DNA of 64,000 nucleotides from Thermoanaerobaculia bacterium (GCA_030431255.1 JAUIJL010000004.1:496001-560000); one strand, 5' to 3'; positions 54,591-64,000 are shown, numbered from the stretch's first letter. Numbers and translations: made by a program. The notes: generated by a model from the sequence alone, not told the origin.

Positions 54591-55781
54591 ATGTCAAAAA
54601 CCCGCGCACCCCTCGTTCTCGCCGCCCCGGTCCGCACACCGATCGGTAAATTTGGTGGCGCCCTGGCTTCCCTTTCCGCCGCCGATCTCGGCACCGCCGC
54701 GGCCGAGGCTTGTTTGGAGCGAGCCGGCGTCTCCCCCGACACCGTGGACCTGACCCTCTTCGGCCACGGTCGCCAAGCCGGCGGCGGACCCAATACCGCC
54801 CGCCAAGTCTCTTATCGCGCCGGCGTGCCCCAAGAAAGCCCGGCGTTCACCATCAATCAGGCCTGCGGATCGGGCCTGCAAGCGGTGCTCTCCGGCGCCC
54901 GGCACATCCGCCTCGAAGAAGCCGAGGTGGTCCTGGCCGGCGGCACCGAGAGCATGTCGAATACGCCCTACATGCTGCCCCGAGCCCGTTGGGGTTATCG
55001 GCTGGGTCACGCCGAGCTGAGCGACGGCATGTATCGCGACGGCTTCAACGATCCCCTCTCCGGACTGGTGATGGGCGAGACCGCCGAGGAGCTGGCGGAG
55101 GACTACGACATCGACCGCGCCGCTTCCGACGCCTGGGCCGTGGGCTCCCAAAACCGTAGCGAAAGAGCGCGGGCCGAGGATCGATTCGCCCAGGAGATCG
55201 TGCCCATCACCGTGCCCGGACGCAAAGGCGACACCGTGGTCGAGCGCGACGAGCACCCCCGCGACGGCATCACCGCCGAGAAAATCGCCAAGATGCCGAC
55301 GGTCTTCCGCCAGGGTGGACGGGTGACCGCCGCCAACGCCTCCGGCATCACCGACGGCGCCGCCGCCTTGTTGGTGGCGTCCGAGCAGGCGGCGGAGCGT
55401 CACGGCTTGCAGCCGGCCGCCCTGCTGCGGGATTGGCAGGTGGTCGGTGTCGACCCGCGGATCATGGGCATCGGTCCCGTGCCCGCCTGCCGCGAGCTGC
55501 TCAAACGCAATCACCTGAGCTTCGACGACATCGACCAAGTGGAGCTCAACGAAGCCTTCGCCTGCCAGGTGCTGGCCTGCCTCAAAGATCTGCCCTTCGA
55601 TCCCGAAAAAGTCAATCCCGACGGCGGCGCCATCTCCCTGGGTCACCCGATCGGCGCCACCGGCGCCCGCATTCTGGTGACCCTCTTGCACGGCTTGGCC
55701 TGGCGCCAAGGGCGCTTCGGCATCGCCACCCTGTGCATTTCCGGCGGTCTGGGCATCGCCGCGTTGGTGGAACGGATCTGA
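54591..55781 (+). CDS. Thiolase (acetyl-CoA C-acyltransferase)
   Basis: 396-aa thiolase. Active-site Cys92 in INQACGSGLQAVLSG, GGTESMSNTPYML, NASGITDGAAALLVASE, LNEAFACQVLACL, the His in SLGHPIGATGARI, and the second Cys in TLCISGGLGIA are all in place. The family makes or splits acetoacetyl-CoA/3-oxoacyl-CoA. The stop overlaps the next crotonase ATG (TGATG). The ATG at 54591 was chosen because upstream in-frame sequence lies in the MITE-like repeat. Confidence 0.95.
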   Translation: MSKTRAPLVLAAPVRTPIGKFGGALASLSAADLGTAAAEACLERAGVSPDTVDLTLFGHGRQAGGGPNTARQVSYRAGVPQESPAFTINQACGSGLQAVLSGARHIRLEEAEVVLAGGTESMSNTPYMLPRARWGYRLGHAELSDGMYRDGFNDPLSGLVMGETAEELAEDYDIDRAASDAWAVGSQNRSERARAEDRFAQEIVPITVPGRKGDTVVERDEHPRDGITAEKIAKMPTVFRQGGRVTAANASGITDGAAALLVASEQAAERHGLQPAALLRDWQVVGVDPRIMGIGPVPACRELLKRNHLSFDDIDQVELNEAFACQVLACLKDLPFDPEKVNPDGGAISLGHPIGATGARILVTLLHGLAWRQGRFGIATLCISGGLGIAALVERI

Positions 55782-57582: not shown

Positions 57583-57748
57583 CGGCACCGGTGCCCGGCA
57601 CCGGTGCCAGGTTGATGTCTCAGCATCGGTGCCACGTTGATGTTTCGGCCGATCTGTTCGGACCGGTGCCACGTTGATGTTCGGACCGGTGCCACGTTGA
57701 TGTTCGGACCGGTGCCACGTTGATGTTCGGACCGGTGCCACTTTGATG
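57583..57748. repeat. 23-bp tandem repeat array
   Basis: Four contiguous 23-bp units at 57657-57679, 57680-57702, 57703-57725 and 57726-57748 are identical except one base in the last (CACGTTGATG becomes CACTTTGATG). The core is GGACCGGTGCCACGTTGATG. Diverged copies end at 57617 and 57642, and two GGCACCGGTGCC palindromes start the array. There are no unique spacers, so it is not a CRISPR. It lies between convergent genes. Confidence 0.9.
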
Positions 57749-57809
57749 TTCCGGCGGCATCCCGTACCCCGAAGGGGTTCTTTTCCAAAGCCTGGGGTTG
57801 CGCGCAGCG

Positions 57810-58757
57810 CTACCCCAGGGACGGTTCGTCCCGCCAAGTCTCCGCCCAACGCCGAGGCCCCATGAACCGACAAGACGCCGTGGCCACCCGGCCGGCCTGG
57901 CGTAGGCTTCTTTCGAAGTCGTTTTCCTTGGCGAAGAAATAGCAGAAGGCACCGTGGAAGACATCACCCGCAGCCAGGGTATCGACCTCCCGGCCGGCTT
58001 CGATGGACGGCACCTCGATGTCCAGCAGCTCCGAAACGTCCGAGGGATCCAGAGCGAGGATCGGTCGCTCGCCACGGGTCATGGCGGCCATGGCGAGACC
58101 CAAGTCGCGGAAATAGCCCATCACGCCATGCTCGGTTTCCACCCCGGGCGGACGGAAATCCGCCGACGCCACCACCGCGTCCACCCGCCGGAGCAGCTCA
58201 TCGGTACCGTCCTTCCAGCTACCGGCGTCCATGACGATCCGCGGTCGCGGTCCGGGTTGATCTCGAAGCCGTTTCGTGACCTCCAGGCTCAAGGCCATCT
58301 CGTGACCGTCCACCAAGAGCACGTCGACTCCCTCGAAGGAGAGCTCCGCGGGCAGCCGTCCGGCCCGGAGAATCGCCGGGGATGAGACGATGGTCCGCTC
58401 GGAGCTGCCCGGGGTGATGAAGATGCAGGAGAGCGACGGCGGGGTTTGCCGGCCTGGATCGAGATCGTCGATCTTCACCTCGGGTCCGAGGTCCTTGCGG
58501 ATGACGTCCGCCAAGCTGTGATTTCCCACTTGGGCCAACAACCCGGCGCGTCCGCCCAGGAGCGAAAACGTGGCGGCGGCGTTGGCGGCCGGTCCACCGG
58601 CGAATTCCCAACGCTCCTCGGCCACGGTTTTTCCGCCGATCACGGGTAGGTGGGGCAGGCGATAGAGGAAATCGACGGTCGCCAGCCCCAGAAAGCGACC
58701 CACCGGCCCAGCCTCCGATTCCGGCCCAATCTCCGAAGGCGTCGATGAGTCGCTCAA
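57810..58757 (-). CDS. PfkB-family carbohydrate kinase
   Basis: 315-aa ribokinase-like sugar kinase. LGLATVDFLYRLPHLP and the GG dipeptide in EFAGGPAANAAATFSLLGG form the first signature; VDTLAAGDVFHGAFCYFFA is the second, with the catalytic Asp in AAGDVFHGA. VLLVDGHEMAL and SADFRPPGVETE lie between. The start is a TTG at 58757 overlapping the methyltransferase stop (TTGA), which removes an unlikely 38-residue extension. The sugar substrate cannot be predicted. Confidence 0.9.
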   Translation of the reverse strand: MSDSSTPSEIGPESEAGPVGRFLGLATVDFLYRLPHLPVIGGKTVAEERWEFAGGPAANAAATFSLLGGRAGLLAQVGNHSLADVIRKDLGPEVKIDDLDPGRQTPPSLSCIFITPGSSERTIVSSPAILRAGRLPAELSFEGVDVLLVDGHEMALSLEVTKRLRDQPGPRPRIVMDAGSWKDGTDELLRRVDAVVASADFRPPGVETEHGVMGYFRDLGLAMAAMTRGERPILALDPSDVSELLDIEVPSIEAGREVDTLAAGDVFHGAFCYFFAKENDFERSLRQAGRVATASCRFMGPRRWAETWRDEPSLG

Positions 58758-59614
58758 GACCTTTCCACACTCGTGGGCTTTCGGGCGTAAGCGCTTTGCC
58801 AATAGGCCACCGAGGACGGCCAAATGCGTCGCAAGGCGTTGTGAAGGCGGTCTTTGGGACCCTTCTTCCAACGTCGATTGGCGTAGATCCGATGCTCCTC
58901 CAGCTCGAAACCCAGGGAGGTCAGGATGCGCGCGGTGGTCGCTTTGGGGAAGCCGAAGGTGTGATCCTGACCGAGACCAAATCGCCCGGTGACCAAAGTG
59001 ATCACCTCGCCCAGGGGCGTCACCGGATTGGGCATGCCCATGTGCAACACCCCGCCCGGTTTCAACCAGCGGTAAATGTTCTCCAGCGCTTTCACCGGCT
59101 CCCGCAAATGCTCGATGACGTGCCAGAAACGCACATAATCGAATGAGGCGTCCGGATAGTCCACCTCACCGATCGCCGCCTGCTGCAACGTCTCCAACCC
59201 ACGCTCCCGTCGCGCAAAGTCGACAAACGCCCCGGAAAGCTCCACCCCGTCCACCGCCCAGCCGAGATCCCGAAACGCCTCCATGATCTCGCCCGACGCC
59301 GCCCCTACATCGAGAAAACGCCCGTCCGTCGGCTCACCCATCCGTTCATGGGCCGCCGCCACATACTCCCGAACCGACGCCGAAATCTCCACCGAGCGCG
59401 GATTTGTCTCCCCATACCCCGCGTAGTACTCGCGCATGCTCTCCGCGTCGGCAATGGGATTCACAAACAACAGCCCACAACCCGGGCAAGCTACCACCTG
59501 GGGATGAAACGCCACCCCCGTGCCCTTGCGGCCCTTGGGGCGAAAATCGGTGCCGCCGCAAAACGGACACCGCTTGAAATACTGATATCGATACCTGGTT
59601 TCCAGCACCGGCAA
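58754..59614 (-). CDS. Class I SAM-dependent methyltransferase with N-terminal zinc ribbon
   Basis: 286-aa protein. A CPFCGG...CPGCGLLF pair (about 16-47) forms a zinc-ribbon-like start. The methyltransferase core has FLDVGAASGEIMEAFRDLG (SAM motif I), VDGVELSG, FDYVRFWHVIEHLREPVKAL and LKPGGVLHMGMPNP, the Methyltransf_11/23 pattern often seen in cell-surface or glycan-modifying enzymes. TTG (59614) or GTG (59608) start. Coupled to the sugar kinase, so a sugar or nucleotide-sugar target is a reasonable guess. Confidence 0.88.
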   Translation of the reverse strand: MPVLETRYRYQYFKRCPFCGGTDFRPKGRKGTGVAFHPQVVACPGCGLLFVNPIADAESMREYYAGYGETNPRSVEISASVREYVAAAHERMGEPTDGRFLDVGAASGEIMEAFRDLGWAVDGVELSGAFVDFARRERGLETLQQAAIGEVDYPDASFDYVRFWHVIEHLREPVKALENIYRWLKPGGVLHMGMPNPVTPLGEVITLVTGRFGLGQDHTFGFPKATTARILTSLGFELEEHRIYANRRWKKGPKDRLHNALRRIWPSSVAYWQSAYARKPTSVERS

Positions 59615-59766: not shown

Positions 59767-60510
59767 TCACACTAACTGAGCTTCAAATTTGAGCCTGCGG
59801 CGGATTTCTGGAATCCAAATAACCATCTGGACGAGGCAGATAACCCCAGCAGCAAAAATCATTCCAACAAACACTATTGGTTTCCAATTAGCGAGCGTTC
59901 CGTCTATGCGAAATGATAAGAGTGCCATTGAAACTGAAATGATCAAAAGTACTACGTCAAAGAACAGCCACAAGTGCTTCATCTTTTGACGCTGCTCCGC
60001 AGGCGAATCTCCAAGGTTTACGAAGGAATTCTCGCCTGATGCCACCATTATTTCCCGATACATCGCGAAATCCCAACCGATCAAAATCAGAAAGAGTGTC
60101 GTATAGTAACCCCACAAAGAGAGCCCGAGAGGAAGCTCTTCGCCAGAAGCAACCTTGCTAAAGCAGTTTGGCAAGTAGCTCACGAGAAAAACCCATAGGG
60201 CCCGCAGAATCCACTCCACTTTTCTAATTACATTAGTTAGTTTCTCCGAACCCAAGATCGGCAAGCTGTCGACTGCCCATGCATGGGCATAAAGTCTCGC
60301 CGCCATTGAAGTATGTGCAATAATTACGGGATAGGCCAACCCTGGAAGCTCCAGCAGCTGTTCTCCCTCCTCGGTAACAACCGTCAACTGTATTGCCTTT
60401 GCAATATTGGGAAGACTCTCTAGAGTGCCTAGCAGATAAACAGCGCAAGAAGTCACAGCAAACACGGAAACCGTTAAACCGCCCTTCTTCTGCCGCTCGA
60501 AGGTAACCAT
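59767..60510 (-). CDS. Polytopic membrane protein of unknown function
   Basis: 247-aa protein with about five hydrophobic helices (LTVSVFAVTSCAVYLLGTL, ILRALWVFLVSYL, YYTTLFLILIGWDFAMY, HLWLFFDVVLLIISVSMALL, PIVFVGMIFAAGVICLVQMV) and a basic C-terminus (RRRLKFEA). I do not recognise a family. It is the last gene of the AT-richer minus-strand operon, 15 bp after the DxDDT protein gene, so it probably shares that system's function. Confidence 0.75.
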   Translation of the reverse strand: MVTFERQKKGGLTVSVFAVTSCAVYLLGTLESLPNIAKAIQLTVVTEEGEQLLELPGLAYPVIIAHTSMAARLYAHAWAVDSLPILGSEKLTNVIRKVEWILRALWVFLVSYLPNCFSKVASGEELPLGLSLWGYYTTLFLILIGWDFAMYREIMVASGENSFVNLGDSPAEQRQKMKHLWLFFDVVLLIISVSMALLSFRIDGTLANWKPIVFVGMIFAAGVICLVQMVIWIPEIRRRLKFEAQLV

Positions 60511-60525
60511 GTCCCTTCCCTCTAC

Positions 60526-61575
60526 CTACCCCGTTCGCAAGAACGGTGATCTATTCCGCCTGTTGGCAATTTCGAAGCCTTGAAGGCGCCTAGTCCATCC
60601 AGGAGAACCATAGTAGTGTCTGAGTCGACGGTGGCGAAAAACTATATCCGGAGATTCATTCTCCGGCTCAACTGTGCCTTCCAATGAACCTCGTTCAACA
60701 GTGGAAATTGGAGGATATTCGCAAAGGCCCAGAAAGCCCTCGAGTATTCCCCACCATTTCGCTTCCTGTGAATATTTGTTTCCGACTTTCAGACAACTGT
60801 CTTCTTTATGGCTCTCTACCCTTTCTTTCAGCGATCTAGGGTTCACTCCAATTTCTTCAAGATCTACATAGAGAAGACACGCCGCCTCCGCAAGGCGATA
60901 GGCAAAATGACCCGCCGAAAAGTAGTATCTAGAGAGATCAGAAAAGGGAACTCCATTTAAGCTGAAGTTGAGAACCTCGCCAGCTCGACGAAGAAGAGCG
61001 AGGAGTAGATGCCTATTTCTCGTAGCAACCTTGGGATACCAAAGTGCGGTAGTTCGAACAGTCGCGACCGTCACCATTGGATCTTCTCTTTTCGGTAGAT
61101 TCCTTGAGTCTCCAAGAAAGACCGACAGCGCAAAAGTAGACTCGGATTTCAAGCGAGTGTCTACACCCAAGAAGGCCCGCTCGAATATCGAAGATTTCAG
61201 ATGTCTCTCCCACCAAGAGTCGTCCGGAATAGGACCCCTCAGATCCAGCACTAGCCCCAACGTCTGTATAGCTCTGACAAGATCGACTGCCTTCGAGGTG
61301 TCATCCCAATCTGGTGGAAAATCCACTCCTGAAATAGACGGTGTCTTTTCCCATTTCCACGCCGAACAACCGTCATAAATAACAGCTTCTTCCGCTACTC
61401 GATCAGCAGAGGATCTTAACTCTTCTATGTCGTTCTGTTGTAAGCCCTCAAGCTGGCAGAAAGCCTCCGCCAGATAGCACTCCAAACCTAGATTCGATGA
61501 TCTTCCGACGTGAGCAGACGCCTCAATCTCATTATATCGATAAGTTTCTGCTCTTATTGGACTTAAGCCCGACAT
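60526..61575 (-). CDS. Uncharacterised helical protein with DxDDT motif (terpene-cyclase/prenyltransferase-like toroid candidate)
   Basis: 349-aa soluble protein. Residues 87-94 read PPDWDDTS, matching the DxDDT acid motif of class II terpene cyclases (Asp89, Asp91, Asp92), and the flanking WKWEKTPSISGVDF and KAVDLVRAIQTLG resemble one repeat of an alpha/alpha toroid. Other helices (RAGEVLNFSLNG, FAYRLAEAACLLYVDLEE) would fit such a fold. I cannot find the repeated QW motifs of squalene-hopene cyclase, so this could be a non-cyclase relative. It starts at the base after the EcfT-like stop (TGAATG) and is followed by a membrane protein gene. Codon use is AT-richer than the core genome. Confidence 0.7.
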   Translation of the reverse strand: MSGLSPIRAETYRYNEIEASAHVGRSSNLGLECYLAEAFCQLEGLQQNDIEELRSSADRVAEEAVIYDGCSAWKWEKTPSISGVDFPPDWDDTSKAVDLVRAIQTLGLVLDLRGPIPDDSWWERHLKSSIFERAFLGVDTRLKSESTFALSVFLGDSRNLPKREDPMVTVATVRTTALWYPKVATRNRHLLLALLRRAGEVLNFSLNGVPFSDLSRYYFSAGHFAYRLAEAACLLYVDLEEIGVNPRSLKERVESHKEDSCLKVGNKYSQEAKWWGILEGFLGLCEYPPISTVERGSLEGTVEPENESPDIVFRHRRLRHYYGSPGWTRRLQGFEIANRRNRSPFLRTG

Positions 61576-62262
61576 TCATATTCTCCATTTATTTTCTAAT
61601 AAATAAGCTAGTGTACTAAGAATGGCAGCCGTGCAGAGCCTTCCCAAGAGAGACTCTGACGATCGGCTCCAAGCAGTCCCAGAGACCAATCTATAGTGCC
61701 GCACTATCGCCGCTGAATGCACTGTTCTCGAGACATCAGGTACTCGCGCAGCAACGACTATTGCCAACAAATAGGCTTGGCGAACTCTGTCGAAACCGCT
61801 CTTGCGAACCTGTCCACTTTTGAGGGAATACTTCAAGCCTTGAGCAAATTCAGATATTGCGCTCGGAAGCAGGTTGCGATGGAGTGCAAATGCCTCCCAG
61901 AATCCAGGCTCACCTGATTTTCTTCTAATTAGCCCAACCAGTGAATCAAAATAAGATGGCATTACCAAGACTGTAGATATAACAGCGCAAAGGAGGTACC
62001 TAGCCAACATCTCAGCACCATCAAAGGGACTGATCAGGAGAGCCAACACAACTAGAGCGCAAAAGCCAAGCCCCCTCTTTAGAAAACCAGAGAGACCTTC
62101 CCAGGCATCGGCCAAGCACCAGCCATGAAACCAGATTACTACCATGCCGGTCAGAAAGAGCCCCCACGGATTCAGATTCAGCGCCAATGCTGATGCCCCC
62201 ACCACATAGACAACTCCAAAAAAAATGCTGGCCCAGCTTGACCAATTCGAAAGGCTATGCAA
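61576..62262 (-). CDS. EcfT-like energy-coupling transmembrane protein
   Basis: 228-aa membrane protein. N-terminal helices (ASIFFGVVYVVGASALAL, WGLFLTGMVVIWFHGWCL, LGFCALVVLALLISPF, LARYLLCAVISTVLVM) are followed by an amphipathic region with basic residues (RQAYLLAIVVAARVPDVS, AIVRHYRLVSG), where EcfT proteins have the Ala-Arg-x coupling helices that touch the ATPases. Identity is weak at motif level; the call rests largely on context between a fused two-domain ATPase and S-like gene. TTG start overlapping the ATPase stop by 8 bp. Confidence 0.6.
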   Translation of the reverse strand: MHSLSNWSSWASIFFGVVYVVGASALALNLNPWGLFLTGMVVIWFHGWCLADAWEGLSGFLKRGLGFCALVVLALLISPFDGAEMLARYLLCAVISTVLVMPSYFDSLVGLIRRKSGEPGFWEAFALHRNLLPSAISEFAQGLKYSLKSGQVRKSGFDRVRQAYLLAIVVAARVPDVSRTVHSAAIVRHYRLVSGTAWSRSSESLLGRLCTAAILSTLAYLLENKWRI

Positions 62263-63556
62263 TTTTCAGAACCTTGCTTCGAATGTTTTTAAAGCACTGC
62301 TCGGGAGCTGCACTGATAACGATTTTGCCGTGGTTACACCCTAGCTCAACAGCTCCTTTGATGACTTCTACGTGCTCTTCGTCCAATCCGGCAAATGGCT
62401 CATCTAAGAGAACTATGGGAGCTCCTGAGGCTAGGGCCAGAAGAATCGCAAGTAGCTTTCGCTGACCGAAGCTCAGCGCAAGCACATCGAGGTCAAAAGT
62501 ATTCGCTCTAACTTCTTGGTGCAACCCTCGTCGTTGTTTTTTGTCCCGGAAGTGAGAACGAAGACATCTCTCTATTTCGTCACCTACAGTTGGCCCTAAG
62601 ACTTGGTAGATGGGATCAGCTGGTACAAACGAAGCTTTGTATATTCCCCTCTGCCGCGAAGAAATAAACATAGGCGGCCAGAAAAATCTTTTATTTGAGG
62701 TAAATATATTCCAAAGGCTTCTCAGAAGAGTAGATTTGCCTACACCGTTTCTTCCAACAACCTCAATCAAATCACCAGAACTGGCCTTAATATTAATGAC
62801 TCTCTTGACCCCGACCGGCAATTCGACGCTTTCATCGACGGTTGTCTCAGCCGCAGCAGCGGCAGGAATAAGGCGATTGGTTAGCTCCTTAACCTCACCT
62901 GCAATATCCCAGTGCTCTCGCTCTTCTTGCTGGACCACAAGAGTCGACAGGAGGTCGAGGGGATACCCGTCTGGAGCTCCGCTCGAAGAATTCACCAATG
63001 CGAGATGGGTAGTTCCATTACCACACAGGCGACCCAGCAACTCAAGAATCTTCAGACGCCAGAAAGTATCGAGATGGAGATCCCATTCGTCGGACACTAT
63101 CACTTTAGGGTGGGAAGCAATGGTCAACGCAATCTGGATTCGCTTTTTTTCGCCATCAGAGAGAACACCCTGGGGACGATCCGATAGCTCAAAGATCGCA
63201 AGCTCTTCATAGACCTCGGCGGCCCAGGTTTCCGATCCATTCCCCACTAGTGATACCGCTTTGGCCTCAGATTCTAAAGAATATCCTAGTGAAAAATGTT
63301 GCCACCTCTGAGGAATCACTCGAACTAAATCGCTCTTCAAAGGAAGATAACGGCGATCTCCTAGAAAAAGGTCCATTTCGATGTTTGCCCAGATCGCCTC
63401 AGGAATGACTCCTGCGAGGAAAAGAGACAGCGTGGATTTACCTTTTCCGTTTCCAGCCAGCAAGGCCTGACATCGCCTGTTTTGACTCAGACTAAATTCT
63501 TCAAATTCAATTGATGTACCACTGTAACCTACAGCACCTGCCGACCATCCAATCAT
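62255..63556 (-). CDS. Fused two-domain ABC ATPase (EcfA-EcfA'-like)
   Basis: 433-aa protein with two nucleotide-binding domains in one chain. Domain 1: Walker A AGNGKGKST (34-42), signature LSDGE (132-136), Walker B VIVSDE (152-157). Domain 2: Walker A GRNGVGKST (268-276), signature LSFGQ (361-365), Walker B IVLLDEPFAGLD (381-392). The switch-loop His is missing in both: domain 2 has ISAAPE where STHD-like sequence is normal, and domain 1 has ALVNSSSG. Fused ATPases like this drive ECF-type vitamin/metal importers. Flanked by S-like and T-like genes. Confidence 0.85.
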   Translation of the reverse strand: MIGWSAGAVGYSGTSIEFEEFSLSQNRRCQALLAGNGKGKSTLSLFLAGVIPEAIWANIEMDLFLGDRRYLPLKSDLVRVIPQRWQHFSLGYSLESEAKAVSLVGNGSETWAAEVYEELAIFELSDRPQGVLSDGEKKRIQIALTIASHPKVIVSDEWDLHLDTFWRLKILELLGRLCGNGTTHLALVNSSSGAPDGYPLDLLSTLVVQQEEREHWDIAGEVKELTNRLIPAAAAAETTVDESVELPVGVKRVINIKASSGDLIEVVGRNGVGKSTLLRSLWNIFTSNKRFFWPPMFISSRQRGIYKASFVPADPIYQVLGPTVGDEIERCLRSHFRDKKQRRGLHQEVRANTFDLDVLALSFGQRKLLAILLALASGAPIVLLDEPFAGLDEEHVEVIKGAVELGCNHGKIVISAAPEQCFKNIRSKVLKIA

Positions 63557-63581
63557 GCCCTTGCCTCGAAGGCTTGATCCT

Positions 63582-64000
63582 TCAGGATTCTTGCCTCAAG
63601 TCCCTAAACAGACTTAGTTTGGCGAGCCGTCCATTGTACACAACTTCGCCGAGATATACTCCAGCTGTCGTAACAACCATATTGATACTCATGAGAATCC
63701 AGAACGCTTGTTCGTATTTCGCCAGTGCTACAGCAGGGTCCTTACCGAAGCCGAAACTCAGCGCTGCAATAAGGGAAAGCATGATGCTGGCAGCCCCAAC
63801 AATAGCGCCCGTATAGAGACCAAGTCTGCCCTTGCCCAGCAAGGTGTATATCAAGTCCCAAAGACTCCCTGCTAAAAACCCTATTGCTATTTTGTAAATG
63901 CCCGGAGGTCCGAGAGTGGTTGTCCAAACAGCCAAAGTGGAAAACACCAGCCACATCACAGTTGCTGCTCCAAAAAAGCGAGTCGCTAAGAGTCCCACTG
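63582..64000 (-). CDS. ECF transporter S component-like membrane protein (5' partial)
   Basis: At least 138 aa, reaching the window edge; a GTG at 63998 could be a start but the frame is open. Four or five hydrophobic helices. GPPGIYKIAIGFLAGSLWDL, followed by a loop and GLYTGAIVGAASIMLSLIAAL, resembles the Gly-rich helices of S components, which bind the substrate in ECF importers. No substrate-binding residues can be named. It lies 25 bp before the fused ATPase gene. Another small membrane protein family is possible. Confidence 0.55.
   Translation of the reverse strand, partial: VGLLATRFFGAATVMWLVFSTLAVWTTTLGPPGIYKIAIGFLAGSLWDLIYTLLGKGRLGLYTGAIVGAASIMLSLIAALSFGFGKDPAVALAKYEQAFWILMSINMVVTTAGVYLGEVVYNGRLAKLSLFRDLRQES

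Follow-up and report, generated by a model that had tools for sequence, protein, structure and literature searches.

An AT-rich operon in a Thermoanaerobaculia bacterium: a possible ECF-like importer beside a protein with a cyclase-like acid motif

Five tightly packed, AT-rich genes at one end of a window of 64,000 nucleotides (the whole stretch of DNA analysed, from a Thermoanaerobaculia bacterium; GCA_030431255.1, JAUIJL010000004.1:496001-560000) encode a fused double ABC ATPase, three membrane proteins and a soluble protein with an acid motif of the class II terpene-cyclase kind. We tentatively interpret 59767-64154 as an operon acquired by horizontal transfer and encoding a dedicated ECF-type importer resembling the group I YkoEDC transporters, with the soluble protein X as its partner; we lean towards this reading while holding it at somewhat short of even confidence.

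Vitamins and metals are the cargo of known ECF importers, whose soluble partners, as far as seen, deal with thiamin-type compounds. If the interpretation is true, the link between an ECF-like pump and a cyclase-like protein would point to a terpenoid or another hydrophobic metabolite being taken up and to a stand-alone single-domain cyclase, and the question would be raised how ATP is turned over in a transporter whose ATPase has lost both switch histidines. Since there is at present one orphan operon, it matters mainly as a testable lead.

Layout, base composition and origin of the island

All five open reading frames (Table 1) lie where the first-pass annotation had placed them, and the recomputed frames and spacing agree with its description of overlap, abutment and short gaps. 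The genes are transcribed in the order S, A, T, X, M: a gap of 25 bp separates S from A, A and T overlap by 8 bp, T and X abut (0 bp), and 15 bp lie between X and M. The S gene is cut by the end of the window. Reading past position 64000, as had been advised, into the following contig stretch (C49:554001-574000, L002) completes it with an ATG start, giving a protein of 190 aa (L002:5582-6154 on that stretch).

Table 1. Genes of the AT-rich operon in order of transcription (window coordinates; extended positions continue past the window end).
Feature	Coordinates	Strand	Basis
S-like membrane protein, 190 aa, ~6 hydrophobic segments	63582..64000, start at extended 64154	minus	
A, fused double ABC ATPase, 433 aa	62255..63556	minus	PF00005, collinearity with YkoD-type ATPases
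T-like membrane protein, 228 aa, TTG start	61576..62262	minus	hydrophobicity, low-confidence model
X, soluble 349-aa protein containing AWKWEKTPSISGVDFPPDWDDTSKAV, predicted all-helical	60526..61575	minus	
M, 247-aa membrane protein, last operon gene	59767..60510	minus	

The claim that the base composition departs from that of the core genome is borne out: GC content is 48.4% in the island against 62.0% in the remaining window, where the lowest value among other same-length stretches sampled is 57.4%, and the GC3 of the five genes is 44-51%. As to the two counts first given in its support, 41/60 at 54901-54960 is reproduced and 24/60 at 62641-62700 becomes 25/60 on recounting. The AT-rich composition stops just upstream of S, and beyond it follow an aminotransferase and tsaD at about 62-64% GC.

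Relatives of X were sought widely. None was found in the genome itself beyond X, among 59 relatives, 396 genomes of the phylum and 162 from another of its classes, or in collections of plasmids, phages, viral contigs and genome contigs; weak matches among the 396 phylum genomes were inspected and set aside as chance. Pattern scans confirmed no relative either; these were steered by the real X plus artificial rows that mark PPDxDDT and YYGSP as conserved blocks and carry zero evolutionary information. Likewise, 149 genomes of the class yielded no relative of S, the phylum sample none of T, and the phylum none of A at 1e-35 (with the best four candidates per genome scored).

Four family members have the neighbouring aminotransferase (L002:6305-7588), at 70-74% identity, and in two of them it adjoins tsaD; the five island genes are not adjacent to it there. 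This comparison of insertion sites excludes the nearest relative (G001), in which a scaffold gap cuts the aminotransferase. No convincing flanking repeats were seen at the island edges. Given the absence from the relatives searched (family, class and phylum) together with the foreign, AT-rich composition, the operon fits horizontal gain from an unsampled donor, and the transfer first suggested from composition is supported.

The surroundings hold further features. A SAM methyltransferase gene (window 58754-59614) lies directly downstream of the island, 152 bp away; it has no match at 1e-30 in six other family genomes and is possibly accessory DNA of native composition. Window 57583-57751, between an enoyl-CoA hydratase-like gene and a pfkB-type kinase, contains tandem repeats, with a 23-bp unit (TGTTCGGACCGGTGCCACGTTGA) present in 4.2 copies and a 13-bp unit present twice. 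On the other side, L002:10422-12329 (extended 68422-70329) encodes a 635-aa animal-type haem peroxidase of bacteria (PF03098, 2.5e-161).

The ATPase and the membrane proteins

A is the sole protein of the five with a recognisable family. PF00005 matches it in two stretches (4e-25), so that the annotated fusion of two ABC domains stands. The best NCBIfam model is cbiO, and at 90 bits, far under the cut-off of 212, A is a distant relative of it. In a phage collection that includes stray bacterial contigs we obtained four matches under 1e-5, two of which are full-length fused ATPases of S-A-T operons: one comes from gut DNA, the other from an Enterococcus contig where ykoE, ykoD and ykoC are followed by a tenA-like gene (names based on translations and on comparison with annotated operons). 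Aligned with six fused ECF ATPases, A is collinear across both halves.

The N half contains Walker A AGNGKGKST (with its first Gly replaced by Ala), signature LSDGEKKR and Walker B VSDE; the C half contains GRNGVGKST, LSFGQRKL and LLDEP, respectively. All three motifs, together with the catalytic Glu, are retained in both halves. The switch (H-loop) histidine is lost from both (VNSS and SAAPE where EH/TH is expected), whereas, among 15 ATPase domains encoded next to EcfT genes in the phylum, 14 have it, and the Q-loop Gln of the C half is changed to Ala. Because of these losses, normal ATP turnover by A is doubtful.

The ECF-specific Q-helix of the A subunit follows the pattern X-P-D/E-X-Q-hydrophobic (PMC6828968). 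It is unrecognisable in the N half of A (QRWQHFS) and incomplete in the C half, where DPIYQV keeps the P, the Q and the hydrophobic residue but the acid is replaced by Ile. One half of the canonical fused ATPase of this genome also has no Q-helix (NPSRLLF). At the T-contacting acidic position, 11 residues after the Q-helix acid (PMC6828968), a Glu is found by eye in both halves of A.

The first-pass label of an ECF-type system therefore holds for the ATPase, through the cbiO model and the full-length matches to fused ECF ATPases. For S and T no homology was found: every profile test against ECF S and T families was negative. The size of S, its place in the gene order and its approximately six hydrophobic segments suit an ECF S subunit, and the protein has zero matches in Pfam, NCBIfam, PHROGs and PDB. 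A by-eye impression that it is YkoE-like was dropped, as a proper YkoE profile scored S no better than shuffles.

T is built of a hydrophobic N-terminal part, a helical middle and one C-terminal helix. Its single-sequence model (pLDDT 46), with four helices ahead of the helical middle and one after it, is compatible with EcfT but is not evidence for it, and fold searches with this low-confidence model gave generic helical matches only, among which no EcfT stood out, a result that excludes nothing. T matches neither PF02361 nor any other Pfam, NCBIfam or PHROGs family. A custom profile of the phylum's EcfTs gave -1.9 bits (1717 of 3000 shuffles were equal or better), and the YkoC profile was equalled or bettered by 860 of 5000 shuffles. 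On these results T is not recognisable as an EcfT, CbiQ or YkoC homologue. ECF T subunits have two coupling helices that each end in X-R-X. In T, R153 and R188 of the helical middle are spaced 35 residues apart (33-44 in about 30 EcfTs), and the best window for the coupling-helix-3 motif, 172-191, is in the expected place, though only at p about 0.04. For M, searches of Pfam, NCBIfam, PHROGs and PDB returned zero matches. Pfam does identify the native ECF proteins of this genome, S by PF12822 and T by PF02361. Overall, the size, topology and gene order of S and T are consistent with roles as ECF subunits.

Two other roles for these proteins have to be weighed at this point. A together with S, T and M might work as an exporter or an immunity (self-protection) pump, acting on a compound that X makes or handles. 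We consider this unlikely, given that the fused A is collinear with ECF ATPases, that S, T and M match no exporter-type permease family in Pfam or NCBIfam, and that the island has no biosynthetic genes, X possibly excepted. It would nevertheless account for several observations: an ECF importer would not usually lack both switch histidines and one Q-loop Gln, S, T and M are without ECF homology, and a horizontally gained orphan operon would suit a specialised-metabolite cassette.

Much less probable still is a degenerate ECF-like ATPase that was recruited to regulation or defence and has no part in transport. The PADLOC model mad3 gives A 85.6 bits and both H-loops are lost, as such a role might have it; however, the match most likely concerns the generic ABC ATPase domain (on which ground a MADS or defence identity of A was rejected), the other four proteins have no match in PADLOC, the motifs listed above and the catalytic Glu are retained in both halves, and three membrane proteins in one operon favour transport.

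Protein X and its acid motif

The class II acid motif noted in the first-pass annotation is present: PPDWDDTS occupies residues 87-94 of X and is preceded by W-x-W, in class-II-like aromatic surroundings. The segment, AWKWEKTPSISGVDFPPDWDDTSKAV, resembles GGWAWTDLPGGVPDADDTA of the genome's own squalene-hopene-cyclase-like protein. On a segment profile of 21 class II cyclases X scores 7.8 bits, and one of 5000 shuffles scored higher; this test is post hoc, X having been chosen because of its motif, and two unrelated ORF translations score slightly above X on the same profile. The window contains a second DxDDTS (DPDFDDTSW), in an unrelated 971-aa minus-strand ORF, where it is apparently a chance occurrence within what looks by eye like a galactose-binding-domain motif. 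Consequently, the motif alone is not decisive.

No family was matched by X up to E = 10, PF13243, PF13249 and PF00432 included, and it has no Pfam, NCBIfam or PHROGs match; TenA and YkoF are not matched either. The genome's own cyclase, used as a positive control, matches PF13243 at 3e-25. AlphaFold, given the single sequence, predicts an all-helical protein with approximately 13 helices and the motif at the start of one (pLDDT 42.5); fold searches with this model returned generic helical matches only, and that no toroid stood out excludes nothing. Of the earlier description of X as toroid-like, the part drawn from the motif and its aromatic region is retained and the expected family match is missing; an alpha/alpha toroid is suggested by the motif.

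It might be argued that an ECF-like or other ABC transporter lies beside an unrelated all-helical protein (for example a hydrolase or a binding protein) in which PPDWDDTS is coincidental. This is a plausible explanation, though not the favoured one. It would agree with the absence of a toroid family match, the chance DxDDTS elsewhere in the window and the uninformative structure model, and with the soluble partner in YkoEDC operons being TenA or YkoF and not a cyclase. On the other hand, motif and upstream aromatics of X fit the squalene-hopene-cyclase profile above 4999 of 5000 shuffles, and the predicted helices place the motif where a helix begins.

The same genome holds a probable triterpene operon with a native class II cyclase on contig C17 (L079:1456-5892). 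Its genes encode proteins of 572, 298 and 627 aa: on visual inspection the first looks like a polyprenyl-synthase fusion and the second has toroid-like repeats, and the third is squalene-hopene-cyclase-like and contains PDADDT.

Proposed transporter and comparison with known systems

Under the preferred reading, a YkoEDC-like importer with X as soluble partner, S would capture a small compound, probably hydrophobic or terpenoid-like, in the membrane, and T would serve as the coupling between S and the fused ATPase. Binding and hydrolysis of ATP would then release the compound into the cytosol, the direction of transport presumably being that of import. By analogy with TenA or YkoF beside YkoEDC, binding or processing of this compound would fall to X, which is soluble, predicted to be all-helical and equipped with a cyclase-like acid motif; M may be an accessory membrane protein. 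The acid motif of X suggests a hydrophobic, perhaps isoprenoid, substrate; no riboswitch that would mark a vitamin substrate was found upstream of the operon.

A bolder variant is a new ECF-like class with ATPase halves that lack the switch histidine, devoted to a terpenoid or polyprenyl compound that is bound or cyclised in the cytosol by X as a stand-alone, single-domain class II cyclase-like protein; we think this improbable. The most likely mode of action is that of a group I ECF importer, but given the Q-helix, the results for T and the lost switch histidines, the operon is not counted among the group I ECF transporters, nor is X counted among the class II cyclases. Since only A has recognisable relatives, the pairing of an ECF-like pump with a cyclase-like protein is suggestive; the searches gave no relative of the operon that would show the association to be conserved.

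The association was initially put forward as one without a known parallel. In one respect a parallel exists: a dedicated ECF operon with an adjacent gene for a soluble protein is known from ykoF-ykoEDC (PMC5037267), and tenA beside ykoEDC, seen in the operons compared here, is a second precedent. For the more specific part, a literature search for a link between ECF transporters and terpene cyclases or toroids found nothing.

The genome also has a canonical ECF operon of native composition (C49:741-4734, L036), with an S of PF12822, a fused double ATPase and a T of PF02361. Like the island it unites these three components in a single operon, but it differs in its GC content (about 61-66%), in its Pfam-recognised S and T and in the presence of both switch histidines, and no X-like gene is among the neighbours seen. 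Compared with class II terpene cyclases and the C-terminal domain of squalene-hopene cyclase (PF13243), X comprises just one stretch (349 aa) with no Pfam match and a putative fold, whereas the cyclases compared here measure about 620-745 aa; what they share is the W-x-[FW]...PDxDDT[AS] region and the all-helical prediction.

The closest parallel is YkoEDC with YkoF or TenA, the group I ECF transporter for thiamin or HMP. Unlike YkoEDC, the island has S and T proteins that the YkoE and YkoC profiles do not recognise, no THI riboswitch, a partner X that matches no family (TenA and YkoF included), an extra membrane protein M and an ATPase from which both switch histidines are lost. In both, nonetheless, a soluble partner is encoded next to S, the fused double ATPase and T, the genes overlap or abut, and the ATPases are collinear over both halves.
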